Below are positions 52,852-57,156 of a stretch of 64,000 nucleotides of DNA, in pieces. The stretch is taken from contig NZ_AFXZ01000003.1 in NCBI RefSeq assembly GCF_000224335.1, positions 1 through 64,000 on the forward strand. Direction: 5' to 3'. The notes under the pieces are model-generated. The model worked only from the letters and a program-made list of their open reading frames with translations, was not told the origin of the DNA and did not search any database. Positions within the stretch are counted from its first letter, which is position 1; the number at the start of each line of letters is the position of its first letter. This DNA is from Bizionia argentinensis JUB59. GTDB lineage: Bacteria; Bacteroidota; Bacteroidia; Flavobacteriales; Flavobacteriaceae. Position numbers and translations under genes: made by a program.

Positions 52852-55503
52852 ATGAAATCTCAAGACATACGCGCAAAATTTTTGCAATTTTTTAAAGACA
52901 AGAACCATAGCATTGTGCCGTCGGCACCCATGGTACTAAAAAACGACCCCACTTTAATGTTTGTCAACTCCGGTATGGCGCCATTTAAAGAATATTTTTT
53001 AGGAAATGCTGTTCCTAAAAACAACCGACTTACCGATTCACAAAAATGTTTACGTGTTTCTGGTAAGCATAACGATTTAGAAGAAGTTGGTTATGATACT
53101 TATCACCATACTCTTTTTGAAATGTTGGGTAACTGGAGTTTTGGTGATTATTTCAAAAAAGAGGCCATTGCTTGGGCTTGGGAGTTGCTAACCGAAGAGT
53201 TTGGTGTTGATAAAGATATTTTATATGTCACTGTTTTTGAGGGTGATGAAGGGGACGGTATTCCAATGGATCAAGAGGCTTATGATTTTTGGAAAGAATT
53301 AATTTCGGAAGATCGCATCCTTATGGGGAATAAAAAAGATAACTTCTGGGAAATGGGCGATCAAGGACCATGTGGACCATGTAGTGAAATTCATGTAGAT
53401 ATTCGTTCCGCAGAAGAAAAAGCAGAAGTTCCTGGGAAAGATTTGGTTAATTTAGACCATCCACAAGTTGTGGAAATTTGGAATTTAGTTTTTATGCAAT
53501 ACAACCGTAAAGCCAACGGATCATTAGAAGCATTACCAAATAAGCATATTGATACAGGTATGGGTTTTGAGCGTTTATGCATGGTTTTACAAAACGTAAA
53601 GTCCAATTACGACACAGATGTTTTTACGCCAATTATTCGTGAAATTGAAACGATCACCGATAAAGAATACATCCCCCTCGTAGGGACAAGTCGAGGCTTG
53701 TCCGAAAAAGAAACCGAACAAGAAAAAATAAACGTCGCCATTCGCGTCATTTCAGATCACGTTCGTGCCGTAGCATTTTCAATCGCTGATGGTCAATTAC
53801 CAAGTAATACTGGAGCTGGTTATGTAATCCGAAGGATTTTACGTCGTGCTATTCGATACAGTTTTACATTTTTAGATCAGAAAGAACCGTTTATTTACCG
53901 TTTAGTTGATGTGTTGAGTAAGAAAATGGGTGATGCTTTTCCAGAATTAATTTCGCAAAAGCAACTGATTGAAAACGTGATTAAAGAGGAAGAAGCGTCT
54001 TTTTTAAGAACTTTAGATCAGGGTTTATTGCTTTTAGATGGTATTATAAAAAGTACGTCTGGAGATACTGTTTCAGGTGAAAAAGCATTCGAATTATACG
54101 ATACTTACGGTTTTCCAATCGATTTAACGGCTTTAATTTTATCGGAACAAGAATTGAAGTTGGATGAAACAGGTTTTAAGGAACATTTAGAAAAACAGAA
54201 AAAACGTTCGCGTGCTGCTAGTGAAATGTCTACAGACGATTGGACAATTCTATTTGAAGATTCTGTTCAGGAATTTATAGGTTATGATACTTTGGAGGCT
54301 AATGTAAAAATAGCGCGCTACCGTAAAGTCACTTCTAAAAAAGATGGCGCTATGTATCAACTCGTTTTCAATTTAACACCTTTTTATGCAGAAGGTGGCG
54401 GACAAGTTGGTGATAAAGGTTATTTAGAAGATGCAAACGGCGATATTACTTATATCCTAGATACCAAGAAAGAGAATAACGTGGTGATGCACTTTGCAAA
54501 AGAATTACCAGAAAATATAACTGATACATTTTCGGCGACTGTCGATTCGAAGCAACGTTTTCGTACTGAATGTAATCATACGGCAACACACTTATTACAC
54601 CAAGCATTGCGTGAAGTTTTAGGATCTCATGTGGAGCAAAAAGGAAGTGCGGTTCACTCTAAATATTTGCGTTTCGATTTTTCACATTTTTCTAAATTAA
54701 CAGTAGAAGAATTACGCGATGTTGAACTTTTCGTAAATGCCCGTATTGCTGGAAAATTAGAATTACAAGAACAGCGAAATATGCCTATGGATAAAGCTAT
54801 TGAAGCTGGCGCTATGGCATTATTTGGTGAGAAATATGGCGATACGGTTCGTATGGTTCGTTTTGGTCAATCTATAGAATTGTGTGGAGGAACACATGTG
54901 AAAAACACTGGTGATATTTGGTTTTTTAAAATTACTTCAGAAGGTGCTGTGGCGTCGGGAATTCGTAGAATTGAAGCTATTACAAACGATGCTTTAAAAG
55001 ACTATTTTGTTGATGTTAATAGATCTTTTAATGATATGAGAGCGTTATTGAATAATAACGAACCTGTAAAAGCGCTTCAAAGTTTGCAAGACGAGAATAG
55101 CAGTTTGAAAAAACAAGTAGAAGGGTTATTAAAAGATAAAGCCAAAAACTTAAAAGGCGAACTTAAAAATGAAATTACCGAAATAAACGGGATTCATTTT
55201 CTAGCCAAGAAAGTAGATTTAGATGCTGGTGGAATTAAAGATTTATGTTTTGAATTAGGTAGTCAATATGATAACTTATTCTTGTTGTTTGGAGCAGAAA
55301 ATGACGGGAAGGCTTTATTGTCTTGTTATGTTTCAAAAGAATTAGTTGAAAGAAAAGGGCTAAATGCAGGACAAATAGTTAGAGAACTCGGTAAGTTTAT
55401 TCAAGGCGGTGGCGGCGGACAACCATTTTTTGCAACGGCTGGCGGTAAAAACCCTGCTGGTATTGCGGAGGCTTTAGAGGCTGCAAAGAAGTATTTGGTT
55501 TAG
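52852..55503 (+). CDS. alaS: Alanine--tRNA ligase
   Basis: An 883-residue AlaRS. The class II core starts [27 protein letters not shown], with [43 protein letters not shown] and DTGMGFERL. The tRNA-recognition region includes [21 protein letters not shown]; the editing domain has [12 protein letters not shown] and [10 protein letters not shown]. The C-Ala domain ends with [17 protein letters not shown]. All key residues are present. Residues 274-284 ([11 protein letters not shown]) are encoded by a palindrome and look like an in-frame insertion. A GxxExxY cassette follows. Confidence 0.96.
53675..53703. repeat. In-frame palindrome inside alaS
   Basis: GGACAAG (53684-53690) and CTTGTCC (53697-53703) form a perfect 7-bp stem around TCGAGG, preceded by CCTCGTAG. 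It keeps the reading frame and encodes VGTSRGLS. Its CGAGGCTTG core is shared with the intergenic palindrome at 24911. Confidence 0.75.
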
Positions 55504-55538
55504 TAGTTTTCCGCAGATGGAAAAAGAGCAAAATCGCG

Positions 55539-55580
55539 GAGATTCACGGAGTATTTTTTTTAAATCTCTCTGTGAATCTC
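55539..55580. repeat. Hairpin between alaS and the GxxExxY cassette
   Basis: GAGATTCACGGAG and CTCTGTGAATCTC pair over 13 bp with one G-U, separated by a T-rich loop. It resembles extragenic repeats often seen next to GxxExxY genes and may also terminate alaS. Confidence 0.7.
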
Positions 55581-55708
55581 TGTGTAATAATAAAATTCTC
55601 GCGAAGACGCAAAGCCCAATATTATGAGTGGTTTTTAATATCGTGGTCTGTGAAGTGATAAATATTCAGAATTTCTTATTATTTTAAGGACTTACAAAAA
55701 CATATACA

Positions 55709-56086
55709 ATGAATGAAAACGATATATCTAGGGTAATAGTTGATGTTTGTTATCAGATTCATGTAGAACTTGGGCCTGGATTATTGGAGTCTGTTTATGA
55801 AGAAATATTGTTTCAAGAGTTGATAAATGCAGGAATGATTGTTGAAAGACAAAAATCACTTCCGGTAGTTTGGCGAGGTCAAGAATTAAATTTGACTTAC
55901 AGAACAGATTTAATAGTCGAAAATAAAGTAATCATTGAGATTAAATCTGTTAAGGAAATTCATCCAGTGTATCCAAAGCAACTCTTAACTTATCTGAAAT
56001 TATCAAATTTAAAACTAGGCTTATTGATTAATTTTAATAGTCCCTTAATTAAAACGGGAATTACAAGAATCGTCAATGGACTTTAA
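55709..56086 (+). CDS. GxxExxY protein (PD-(D/E)XK-like nuclease fold)
   Basis: A 125-residue protein with the name-giving motif in VELGPGLLESVYEEIL (G-L-L-E-S-V-Y). The PD-(D/E)XK-like catalytic region is TYRTDLIVENKVIIEIKSV, with Asp, Glu and Lys in the expected order. The rest (PKQLLTYLKLSNLKLGLLINFN) matches the family's C-terminal strand-helix. The gene is often present in several copies per genome, associated with repeats. A nuclease role is suggested by fold only; no activity is established. Here it lies inside inverted repeats between alaS and GSCFA. Confidence 0.9.
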   Translation: MNENDISRVIVDVCYQIHVELGPGLLESVYEEILFQELINAGMIVERQKSLPVVWRGQELNLTYRTDLIVENKVIIEIKSVKEIHPVYPKQLLTYLKLSNLKLGLLINFNSPLIKTGITRIVNGL

Positions 56087-56132
56087 ATAATTTTATGTGT
56101 TAATACATTGAATTCTTAATCTTAAGGGATGA

Positions 56133-56140
56133 TACCTTTG
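56133..56140 (+). promoter_or_regulatory. -7 element next to the right inverted repeat, upstream of GSCFA
   Basis: TACCTTTG matches TAnnTTTG, with TTG 22 bp upstream (56108-56110). It directly abuts the right repeat of the cassette and is 51 bp before the GSCFA start. Confidence 0.45.
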
Positions 56141-56190
56141 CGTCTTTGCGTCTTCGCGAGAGATAAAGAGATAAAATAATAAAATCAAAC

Positions 56191-57156
56191 ATGAATCTTC
56201 AAACAAAAATCCCTCTAAAACCACAACAGCATAATCAAATTGAGTATAGCTCCGATGTGCTTTTATTGGGCTCTTGTTTTGTTGAAAACGTAGGTAAGAA
56301 GTTTGATTATTTTAAGTTTAAAAATAGCCAAAATCCTTTTGGAATTTTATTTCATCCCATAGCCATAGAAAACTTGGTAGCACATGCTATTCAAGAAAAG
56401 ACATATTCAGAAGTTGATATCTTTTTTCAAAATGAGCAATGGCATTGTTTTGATGCACATTCTCTATTAAGTAATCCTAGTAAGGAAATACTTTTAGAAT
56501 CACTCAATAGTCAAATTCAAATTACAGCGCAAAAAATAAAAAGTGCATCGCATATTATAATTACAGTTGGTACGGCTTGGGTTTACAAACTTATTGAAAC
56601 AAATGCTGTAGTTGCCAATTGCCATAAAGTAGCACAGAATAATTTCTCAAAGGAATTGCTTTCTGTTGATGCCGTTTTAGAATCCTTAAAAACTACTGTT
56701 GCTTTAATTGAAAGCGTAAATACAAAAGCAAAAGTCATTTTTACAGTCTCGCCAGTTCGGCATGTTAAAGATGGATTTGTTGAGAATATGCAGAGCAAAG
56801 CCCATCTTATATCGGGGATACATGCGTTTTTAAATCAGAAATCATTAGGTGTTAATGGTCAGTCCCATTACTTCCCATCTTATGAAATCATGATGGACGA
56901 GTTACGAGACTATCGATTTTATGCGGAAGATATGATTCATCCAAACCCAACGGCTATCAATTATATCTGGAATGCTTTTAAAAGGGTTTGGATTTCGGAA
57001 AAAGCATCAAATACTATGGAAGTCGTTGAAGTTATTCAAAAAGGATTGCAGCACAAACCGTTTAACTCCAGTTCTGAAGCACATAAATTATTTTTAAAGA
57101 ATCTGAATGAAAAGCAAGAAGTTCTTCAAAATCAGTTTGGGCATATCACATTTTAA
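56191..57156 (+). CDS. GSCFA domain protein
   Basis: A 321-residue protein with the defining GSCF motif (27-30 in LLLGSCFVENVGKKFDYF), FKNSQNPFGILFHP, IIITVGTAWVYK, VIFTVSPVRHVKDGF, and YFPSYEIMMDELRDYRFYAEDMIHPN. The fold is SGNH/GDSL hydrolase-like, with Ser28 and the DMIHP region as candidate catalytic residues; the substrate is unknown. It is normally found near alaS in flavobacteria as far as I recall; here the two are separated by the GxxExxY cassette. Confidence 0.9.
   Translation: MNLQTKIPLKPQQHNQIEYSSDVLLLGSCFVENVGKKFDYFKFKNSQNPFGILFHPIAIENLVAHAIQEKTYSEVDIFFQNEQWHCFDAHSLLSNPSKEILLESLNSQIQITAQKIKSASHIIITVGTAWVYKLIETNAVVANCHKVAQNNFSKELLSVDAVLESLKTTVALIESVNTKAKVIFTVSPVRHVKDGFVENMQSKAHLISGIHAFLNQKSLGVNGQSHYFPSYEIMMDELRDYRFYAEDMIHPNPTAINYIWNAFKRVWISEKASNTMEVVEVIQKGLQHKPFNSSSEAHKLFLKNLNEKQEVLQNQFGHITF

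Follow-up and report, generated by a model that had tools for sequence, protein, structure and literature searches.

The closest described counterpart of the locus analysed here is the REPIN-RAYT system, for which two papers describe a single-copy enzyme gene flanked by its own repeats, dispersed inverted doublets with a variable spacer, and singlets; there, repeat classes go with enzyme classes, and genomes that have the gene contain more repeats (PMC8049555, PMC3116915). A GxxExxY gene has been reported beside a CRISPR-like reverse transcriptase, where it stands in place of a cas4 gene. In the accessible text of the literature searched, which did not extend to subscription papers and preprints, neither flanking nor dispersed repeats were found described for GxxExxY/PDDEXK_3 genes, nor was a known function found for these widespread genes. 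We consider it moderately probable that the GxxExxY gene and its repeats form a system akin to REPIN-RAYT, in which a RecB/Cas4-like nuclease would recognise, and probably help to disperse, its own hairpins.

The window, i.e., the whole 64-kb stretch of DNA that was analysed, is part of contig C68 of a 3.28-Mb genome, Flavobacteriaceae-like to judge by its relatives, and contains the following features around its GxxExxY gene:

52852–55503, + strand: alaS, left neighbour at the junction, given for context (profile match, synteny)
55539–55580, no strand: solo hairpin of E type (CACAGAG), beside but separate from the cassette (13-nt arms, DNA fold)
55597–55614, + strand: left inward-reading arm of A type (CGCAAAG), an exact 18-bp inverted repeat (arm comparison)
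55709–56086, + strand: GxxExxY/PDDEXK_3 nuclease-fold gene, 125 aa (PF13366 and TIGR04256 profile matches)
56136–56161, − strand: right inward-reading arm of A type, three units, with 56144–56161 pairing exactly with the left arm
56191–57156, + strand: GSCFA-domain gene, right neighbour at the junction, given for context (PF08885, synteny)

The GxxExxY gene is intact, has the same orientation as alaS and the GSCFA gene (all + strand), and is a full-length member of its family; its product matches TIGR04256 over positions 2–116 of 116 (E = 8.3e-42; 142.2 bits versus a cut-off of 35) and, as its sole Pfam match, PF13366 (E = 2.4e-39). The two 18-bp arms (55597–55614 and 56144–56161) are 100% complementary, the right arm being one unit longer (56136–56161); together with the profile matches, this confirms what the earlier note had described, a GxxExxY gene inside exact inverted repeats between alaS and GSCFA. 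At up to 3 mismatches, the 18-mer was found in the 64-kb window at the two arm sites alone (shuffle mean 0.01), and the GxxExxY gene had the highest inverted-flank score among the 53 window ORFs (18, followed by 14.5; 3/53 reached at least 14). The repeat is nevertheless not confined to this cassette, and the note's refuting condition that it be found only here is false: 15-mers of the arm core also occur elsewhere in the genome, e.g., at three places in C21:61910–62182. At up to 2 mismatches, the core 15-mer gave 25 genome matches versus 8 for the reversed 15-mer, so these matches are partly due to chance. The stretch on C21 is an intergenic A-type cluster with other repeat-like sequence in between and no GxxExxY gene in the part read; two further places in this genome (C35:33285–33398 and C69:341157–341220) carry mixed matches of several repeat types. 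A second GxxExxY gene of the same genome, on C59, has inverted arms of another type, GACACGAATT..CACTAAT.

The additional hairpin that had been noted next to the cassette proved real, though its type (CACAGAG) differs from that of the 18-bp arms (CGCAAAG). Its 13-nt arms (55539–55551 and 55568–55580) are 92% complementary, and its predicted DNA fold (−13 kcal/mol, z = −7.9) was equalled by none of 200 shuffles; positions 55568–55584 match the E type with 0 mismatches, and four more matches, at 2 mismatches, were found in the genome. No Rfam match was found at 55300–56400.

The AF2 model of the window protein (pLDDT 93.2) had its best Foldseek match in SSO0001 (4ic1; E = 1.9e-4; VIA-align Z = 9.4, rmsd 3.7 over 100 residues), a Cas4-type protein; restriction enzymes and Holliday-junction resolvases followed, including a fold match to HJC (1gef, Z = 7.0), and these Foldseek and VIA-align rows after the first form a generic PD-(D/E)XK list. 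No sequence match to the window protein was found in PDB. Across 27 proteins, D67, Q91, and Y95 are invariant, and at least 90% retain E27, E77, and K79; the window protein has all six residues. A QxxxY motif combined with D and ExK is the pattern of RecB, Cas4, and lambda exonuclease, and the residues found here are those that an active RecB/Cas4-like nuclease should have, which makes nuclease activity a prediction from the sequence. The core fold of the model and its D...ExK motif indicate that the protein is a member of the PD-(D/E)XK superfamily.

Purifying selection acts on the GxxExxY protein, as dN/dS was 0.03–0.10 in 8/10 gene pairs, those with a computable dS (2/10 were not computable), at a dS of about 1 to 3, i.e., near saturation. 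At this level of synonymous divergence, with the protein conserved, intergenic DNA free of selection would hardly have stayed recognisable.

Inverted arms were found around GxxExxY genes generally. We compared each left flank with the reverse-complemented right flank, leaving out the fragments L090–L098, and used a score of at least 14 as threshold. This was reached by 32/58 family-level loci (26/58 scored lower), as compared to 5.2% for swapped flanks and 0.9% for shuffles, and by 47/75 loci in a cross-phylum set (28/75 scored lower; swapped flanks 8.8%, shuffles 1.5%), which consisted of the 80 best among 582 relatives found with an A/E-like query rather than a random draw, five of the 80 being unscorable. 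The arm-bearing cross-phylum loci include Alphaproteobacteria, Chloroflexota, and Ignavibacteriota. Chance was rejected as the origin of the arms, given that shuffles and swapped flanks lie far below the observed values. Arm units read inward in 202 cases and outward in 45, and units of matching type were present on both sides at 40/45 loci, versus 8/225 for mismatched types. The arms yielded six unit types, named as follows:

A type: CGCAAAG
B type: CACGGATT
C type: CCACGAATACACGAAT
D type: CGCAGATT
E type: CACAGAG
F type: GAACCTTGAT

The type of the repeat tracks the clade of the protein. With unit patterns, hand-made clade lists, and thresholds that were all set after seeing the data, the repeat-type label changed six times on a tree of 57 GxxExxY proteins (45 of them labelled; the partial gene L074 was left out), and at least 21 times in each of 500 shuffles. 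A label-free Mantel comparison, relating protein identity to how well one locus's left arm matches another locus's right arm, gave r = 0.35, a value reached by 0/1000 permutations; the direct-orientation control gave r = 0.09 (5/1000 permutations as high). Among pairs of proteins at least 60% identical, arms were shared by 78/104 pairs with common neighbours and by 25/55 pairs without a common neighbour, and descent of one junction is therefore not the whole reason for shared arms.

Copies of the repeats away from the gene were counted in 149 family genomes from 148 genera, 37 of which carry GxxExxY (including G038, G040, and G069, with fragments only); the counts take in those copies that lie more than about 600 bp from every retrieved GxxExxY locus. 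In the order matching clade, other GxxExxY genomes, and genomes without GxxExxY, at least 2 dispersed B-type copies were found in 6/8, 2/29, and 0/112 genomes, at least 5 C-type copies in 7/7, 9/30, and 5/112, at least 3 E-type copies in 6/8, 7/29, and 0/112, and at least 2 A-type copies in 7/13, 5/24, and 3/112. In two of the last three genomes (G070 and G074), the A copies come from simple tandem runs; both were excluded wherever counts were summed. With copies beside the gene included, the figures for matching genomes were 10/13 for A, 7/8 for B, and 7/7 with at least 8 copies for C. Threshold-free rank tests agreed for B and C and gave, against other GxxExxY genomes, p = 0.04 for A and p = 0.02 for E; by their A copy numbers, matching genomes can hardly be told apart from the other GxxExxY genomes (p = 0.07), and in 6/13 clade-A genomes the number of A copies distant from the gene is below 2. 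All types summed, genomes without GxxExxY have a median of 0 copies. The presence of GxxExxY thus matters for A, B, C, and E, whereas a match of clade makes a clear difference for B and C, a smaller one for E, and hardly any for A. Reversed patterns, used as controls in the 149 genomes, gave no matches for A, at most 2 per genome for E, usually 0 to 2 and once 5 (G024) for C, and at most 2 in 12 genomes for B, so single B copies are to be read as background. Individual genomes depart from the general pattern: the clade-B genome G148 has no B copy, three gene-less genomes keep C-type copies (23 in G086, 17 in G087, and 9 in G067), and the highest E-type counts were found in G123 (45) and G138 (21), neither of which has an E-clade gene. 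The only GxxExxY gene found in G123 belongs to clade B, a misfit to a pairing of one gene with one repeat.

Many of these copies are arranged in pairs. Adjacent close copies were convergent in 24 cases, divergent in 4, and direct in 6; four of the convergent pairs lie in the flanks of one and the same gene (G134) and five in one tandem array (G065). The latter (G065:C1:131691–132637) contains a pair of convergent B-type copies, separated by 64 bp, that recurs five times at intervals of 212–220 bp, as a tandemly amplified pair. Reading of 20 C-type places showed compact doublets, in the form of hairpins some 50 bases long whose loops vary, and otherwise singlets; the centre base agrees in 9/11 places in which both arms were recognised. 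In G029, 8 convergent doublets were found among 26 typed of 33 copies. The 23 C copies of the gene-less genome G086 include no doublet, which is how decaying singlets would look. Related repeats elsewhere thus form, by predicted fold, short hairpins made of two inward arms and a variable loop.

It is unlikely that the nuclease is linked to the hairpins by function and without dispersal, i.e., that it binds or processes them, as DNA or as transcripts, in regulation, genome maintenance, or defence, and that selection or replication accidents keep or spread the repeats. Purifying selection and the arms around the protein's gene would suit such a role, as would the fact that at 7/8 loci looked at GxxExxY runs in the same direction as the nearest long ORF on either side, with several housekeeping genes among these neighbours; by itself, however, such a link leaves the scattered gene-linked hairpin copies unexplained. 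A role in defence is further opposed by the absence of any PADLOC defence-system match for GxxExxY, on account of which the defence-gene candidate was rejected, and by a PHROG comparison that gave one weak match, annotated as CRISPR-associated (E = 0.003).

Inverted arrays are also found around genes of another family. S23 four-helix-bundle genes (TIGR02436), present in 118/149 genomes, are likewise small accessory genes in inverted arrays, with other units (GGTTGTTGG, AGTTCTTAG, and the like) and from a family other than GxxExxY. An arm score of at least 14 was reached by 10/29 S23 loci (L219–L248; 1 of 30 unscorable), as compared to 2.6% for swapped flanks, and the relation between arm similarity and protein identity was weak (Mantel r = 0.18; 4/1000 permutations as high). 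S23 may represent either a second such system or a sign of a common framing machinery. The comparable architecture of the S23 genes, the gene-less genomes that keep repeats (G086, G087, and G067), and the loose fit of A- and E-type copies to their own clades would all be accommodated if unrelated machinery spread the repeats and GxxExxY had merely landed, or survived, in palindromic repeats. We regard this as improbable, as repeat type tracks protein clade, B and C copy numbers track the matching clade, and genomes without GxxExxY have a median of 0 copies over all types.

A real confounder is the co-occurrence of GxxExxY with Y1 transposases, which are found in 59/149 genomes, i.e., 27/37 genomes with GxxExxY versus 32/112 without. 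This co-occurrence, and the larger number of repeats in those GxxExxY genomes that also have Y1 (p = 0.016), is what would be seen if the repeats were REPs of a RAYT, i.e., of a Y1 transposase, with GxxExxY as a bystander. This explanation is highly unlikely in view of the stratified counts, in which at least 6 of these repeats were found in 19/27 genomes with both genes, 3/10 with GxxExxY alone, 1/32 with Y1 alone (median 0), and 2/80 with neither; G029, which has no Y1 match, nevertheless has 30 C-type copies away from its gene. The flanks of the 27 scorable of 30 Y1 loci contain at most 1 unit of the six types, and several Y1 loci carry palindromes such as CGACCCCAGCGGGGTCG. RAYT-like Y1 genes (L349–L351, L357, and L360–L362) are framed by palindromic REP-like arms of their own (TCCCGTAGGGA, AGCCCTGAAAGGGC, and GACCCCAGCGGGGTC), and two repeat systems therefore appear to coexist. 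RAYT is accordingly disfavoured as the driver, on the stratified counts and the different palindromes at RAYT loci. Help from Y1 in the spread of the repeats is possible, as is a common tolerance of repeats.

Whether the gene itself moves can be judged from its junctions. Five junctions that are common across genera hold 35/57 GxxExxY genes:

alaS–GSCFA: six genes, of which one has just its downstream side in common
map–methyltransferase: ten genes of clade B and six of clade E
Sua5–CCA nucleotidyltransferase: seven genes of clade C
ABC ATPase–permease: four genes of clade D
fifth shared junction: one pair of genes

The other 22/57 genes, which include most clade-A genes outside alaS–GSCFA, have no common same-side neighbour, so that either relocation happens or neighbours change; relocation of the gene over longer times is possible. 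No genome was found to carry two copies of one kind (28 within-genome pairs, at most 60% identical, median 40%), and for 56/57 genes the nearest relative is in another genome. With the window protein as query, which distant clades could escape, relatives were found in 5/72,556 plasmid records and in none of 50,697 phage records.

At the window's own junction, the upstream side of GSCFA was examined in 70 of the 133 family genomes with a match and in 4 genus genomes, and alaS was adjacent in 33/74. These 33 junctions hold the gene in 4 cases, a 24-residue GxxExxY fragment in one (L256), both arms without a gene in one (L035), a solo E-type hairpin in two (L037 and L250), only 3–46 bp in 11, and other sequence in the rest. 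With empty junctions, the remnant in L035, and the fragment in L256, gene loss is no less likely than gain. Junctions without the cassette, which the earlier note had proposed to look for, do therefore exist; of its refuting condition that the cassette sit at the same place in all relatives, one half holds, in that the place is the same, but few relatives carry the gene. Several cassettes with the same ends in one genome, which would have spoken for mobility, did not turn up, as there are no close copies within the genomes sampled.

The exact inverted ends, the empty junctions in relatives, the 22 genes without a common neighbour, and the 25/55 close pairs that share arms at unshared sites are all features that a self-transposing cassette with terminal inverted repeats would have. 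Such a cassette is disfavoured and, in our judgement, very unlikely: no genome has two close copies, most genes sit at the five shared junctions, few are on plasmids and none were found on phages, and no second ORF of at least 50 aa was found inside the cassette. The note's suggestion of a minimal self-copying mobile unit accordingly finds little support.

At the map–methyltransferase site (L002, L028, and L031, among others, and L039, L045, and L046, among others), clades B and E, which are 33–44% identical, occur in different genera with different repeat types; the site may be a hot spot, or one gene may have been replaced by another through recombination. Occupation of one site by two clades, and patchy presence at common intergenic sites, would also be expected of a selfish nuclease of the homing type, one that cuts empty sites and in this way spreads into one allele at a conserved junction. 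This is extremely unlikely, since it leaves both the flanking inverted arrays and the dispersed hairpins of the same type unexplained.

In the preferred reading, that of a nuclease acting on its own hairpins, the gene would reside at a single junction of the chromosome, between two inverted copies of the repeat that belongs to it. The nuclease would most likely recognise this repeat as a single-stranded hairpin or cruciform and would then cut at it, after which repair or lagging-strand copying could spread hairpins, or maintain them, between genes; the gene itself would rarely move, as is the case for a RAYT with its REPINs. Support comes from the predicted fold, the conserved residues, purifying selection, the arms, the match of type and clade, the gene-dependent copy number, the doublets, and the presence of one copy per kind, and it is from these that we infer recognition, cutting, dispersal, and any benefit to the host. 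A repeat-targeting system, the other possibility raised by the earlier note, is likewise favoured by comparison of sequences, in that repeat type tracks protein clade and copy number tracks the gene. If each clade has a hairpin family of its own, the role of GxxExxY becomes directly testable, since a protein should cut its own hairpin and not that of a cousin, and there would be an explanation for many of the repeats scattered between genes in Bacteroidota and perhaps other phyla.

Compared with known systems, Cas4/RecB-type and Holliday-junction PD-(D/E)XK nucleases offer the nearest solved folds to the window protein. Cas4 proteins have four Fe-S cysteines; the window protein (125 aa), with a single cysteine in its translation, is without such a four-cysteine cluster and falls outside Cas4 on this point. 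MITEs and insertion sequences resemble the GxxExxY repeats in their inverted ends and small gene-less derivatives, but the GxxExxY cassette has no transposase gene and no close copies of its gene within a genome; for an autonomous TIR transposon, several near-identical copies would be expected, and none were found among the sampled genomes. The likeness to REPIN-RAYT is closer. In both, the gene is flanked by repeats (although not every GxxExxY locus reaches the score), inverted doublets are dispersed, here with a diverse spacer and predicted to fold, the enzyme gene is present in one copy per kind, here in 28 within-genome pairs of at most 60% identity, and repeats are commoner where the gene is present, with clade specificity in B and C, a looser fit in E, and a weak one in A. 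The differences lie in the enzyme, a Y1/HUH transposase in REPIN-RAYT and a PD-(D/E)XK fold here, with Y1 genes at separate loci; in the repeats, which are short-unit arrays for GxxExxY and G+C-cored palindromes for several RAYTs of these genomes; and in copy number, which by strict patterns is tens at most for GxxExxY. Because its enzyme is unrelated, the GxxExxY system is not REPIN-RAYT itself, yet seems to work alike. We tentatively propose, in a claim that falls somewhat short of probable, that GxxExxY is a second, independently evolved class of repeat dispersers, in which each clade drives its own hairpins, across several phyla, by a PD-(D/E)XK rather than an HUH cut, and in which the gene seldom moves; the REPIN-RAYT lifestyle of a static enzyme and spreading repeats would then have evolved twice, from unrelated enzymes.
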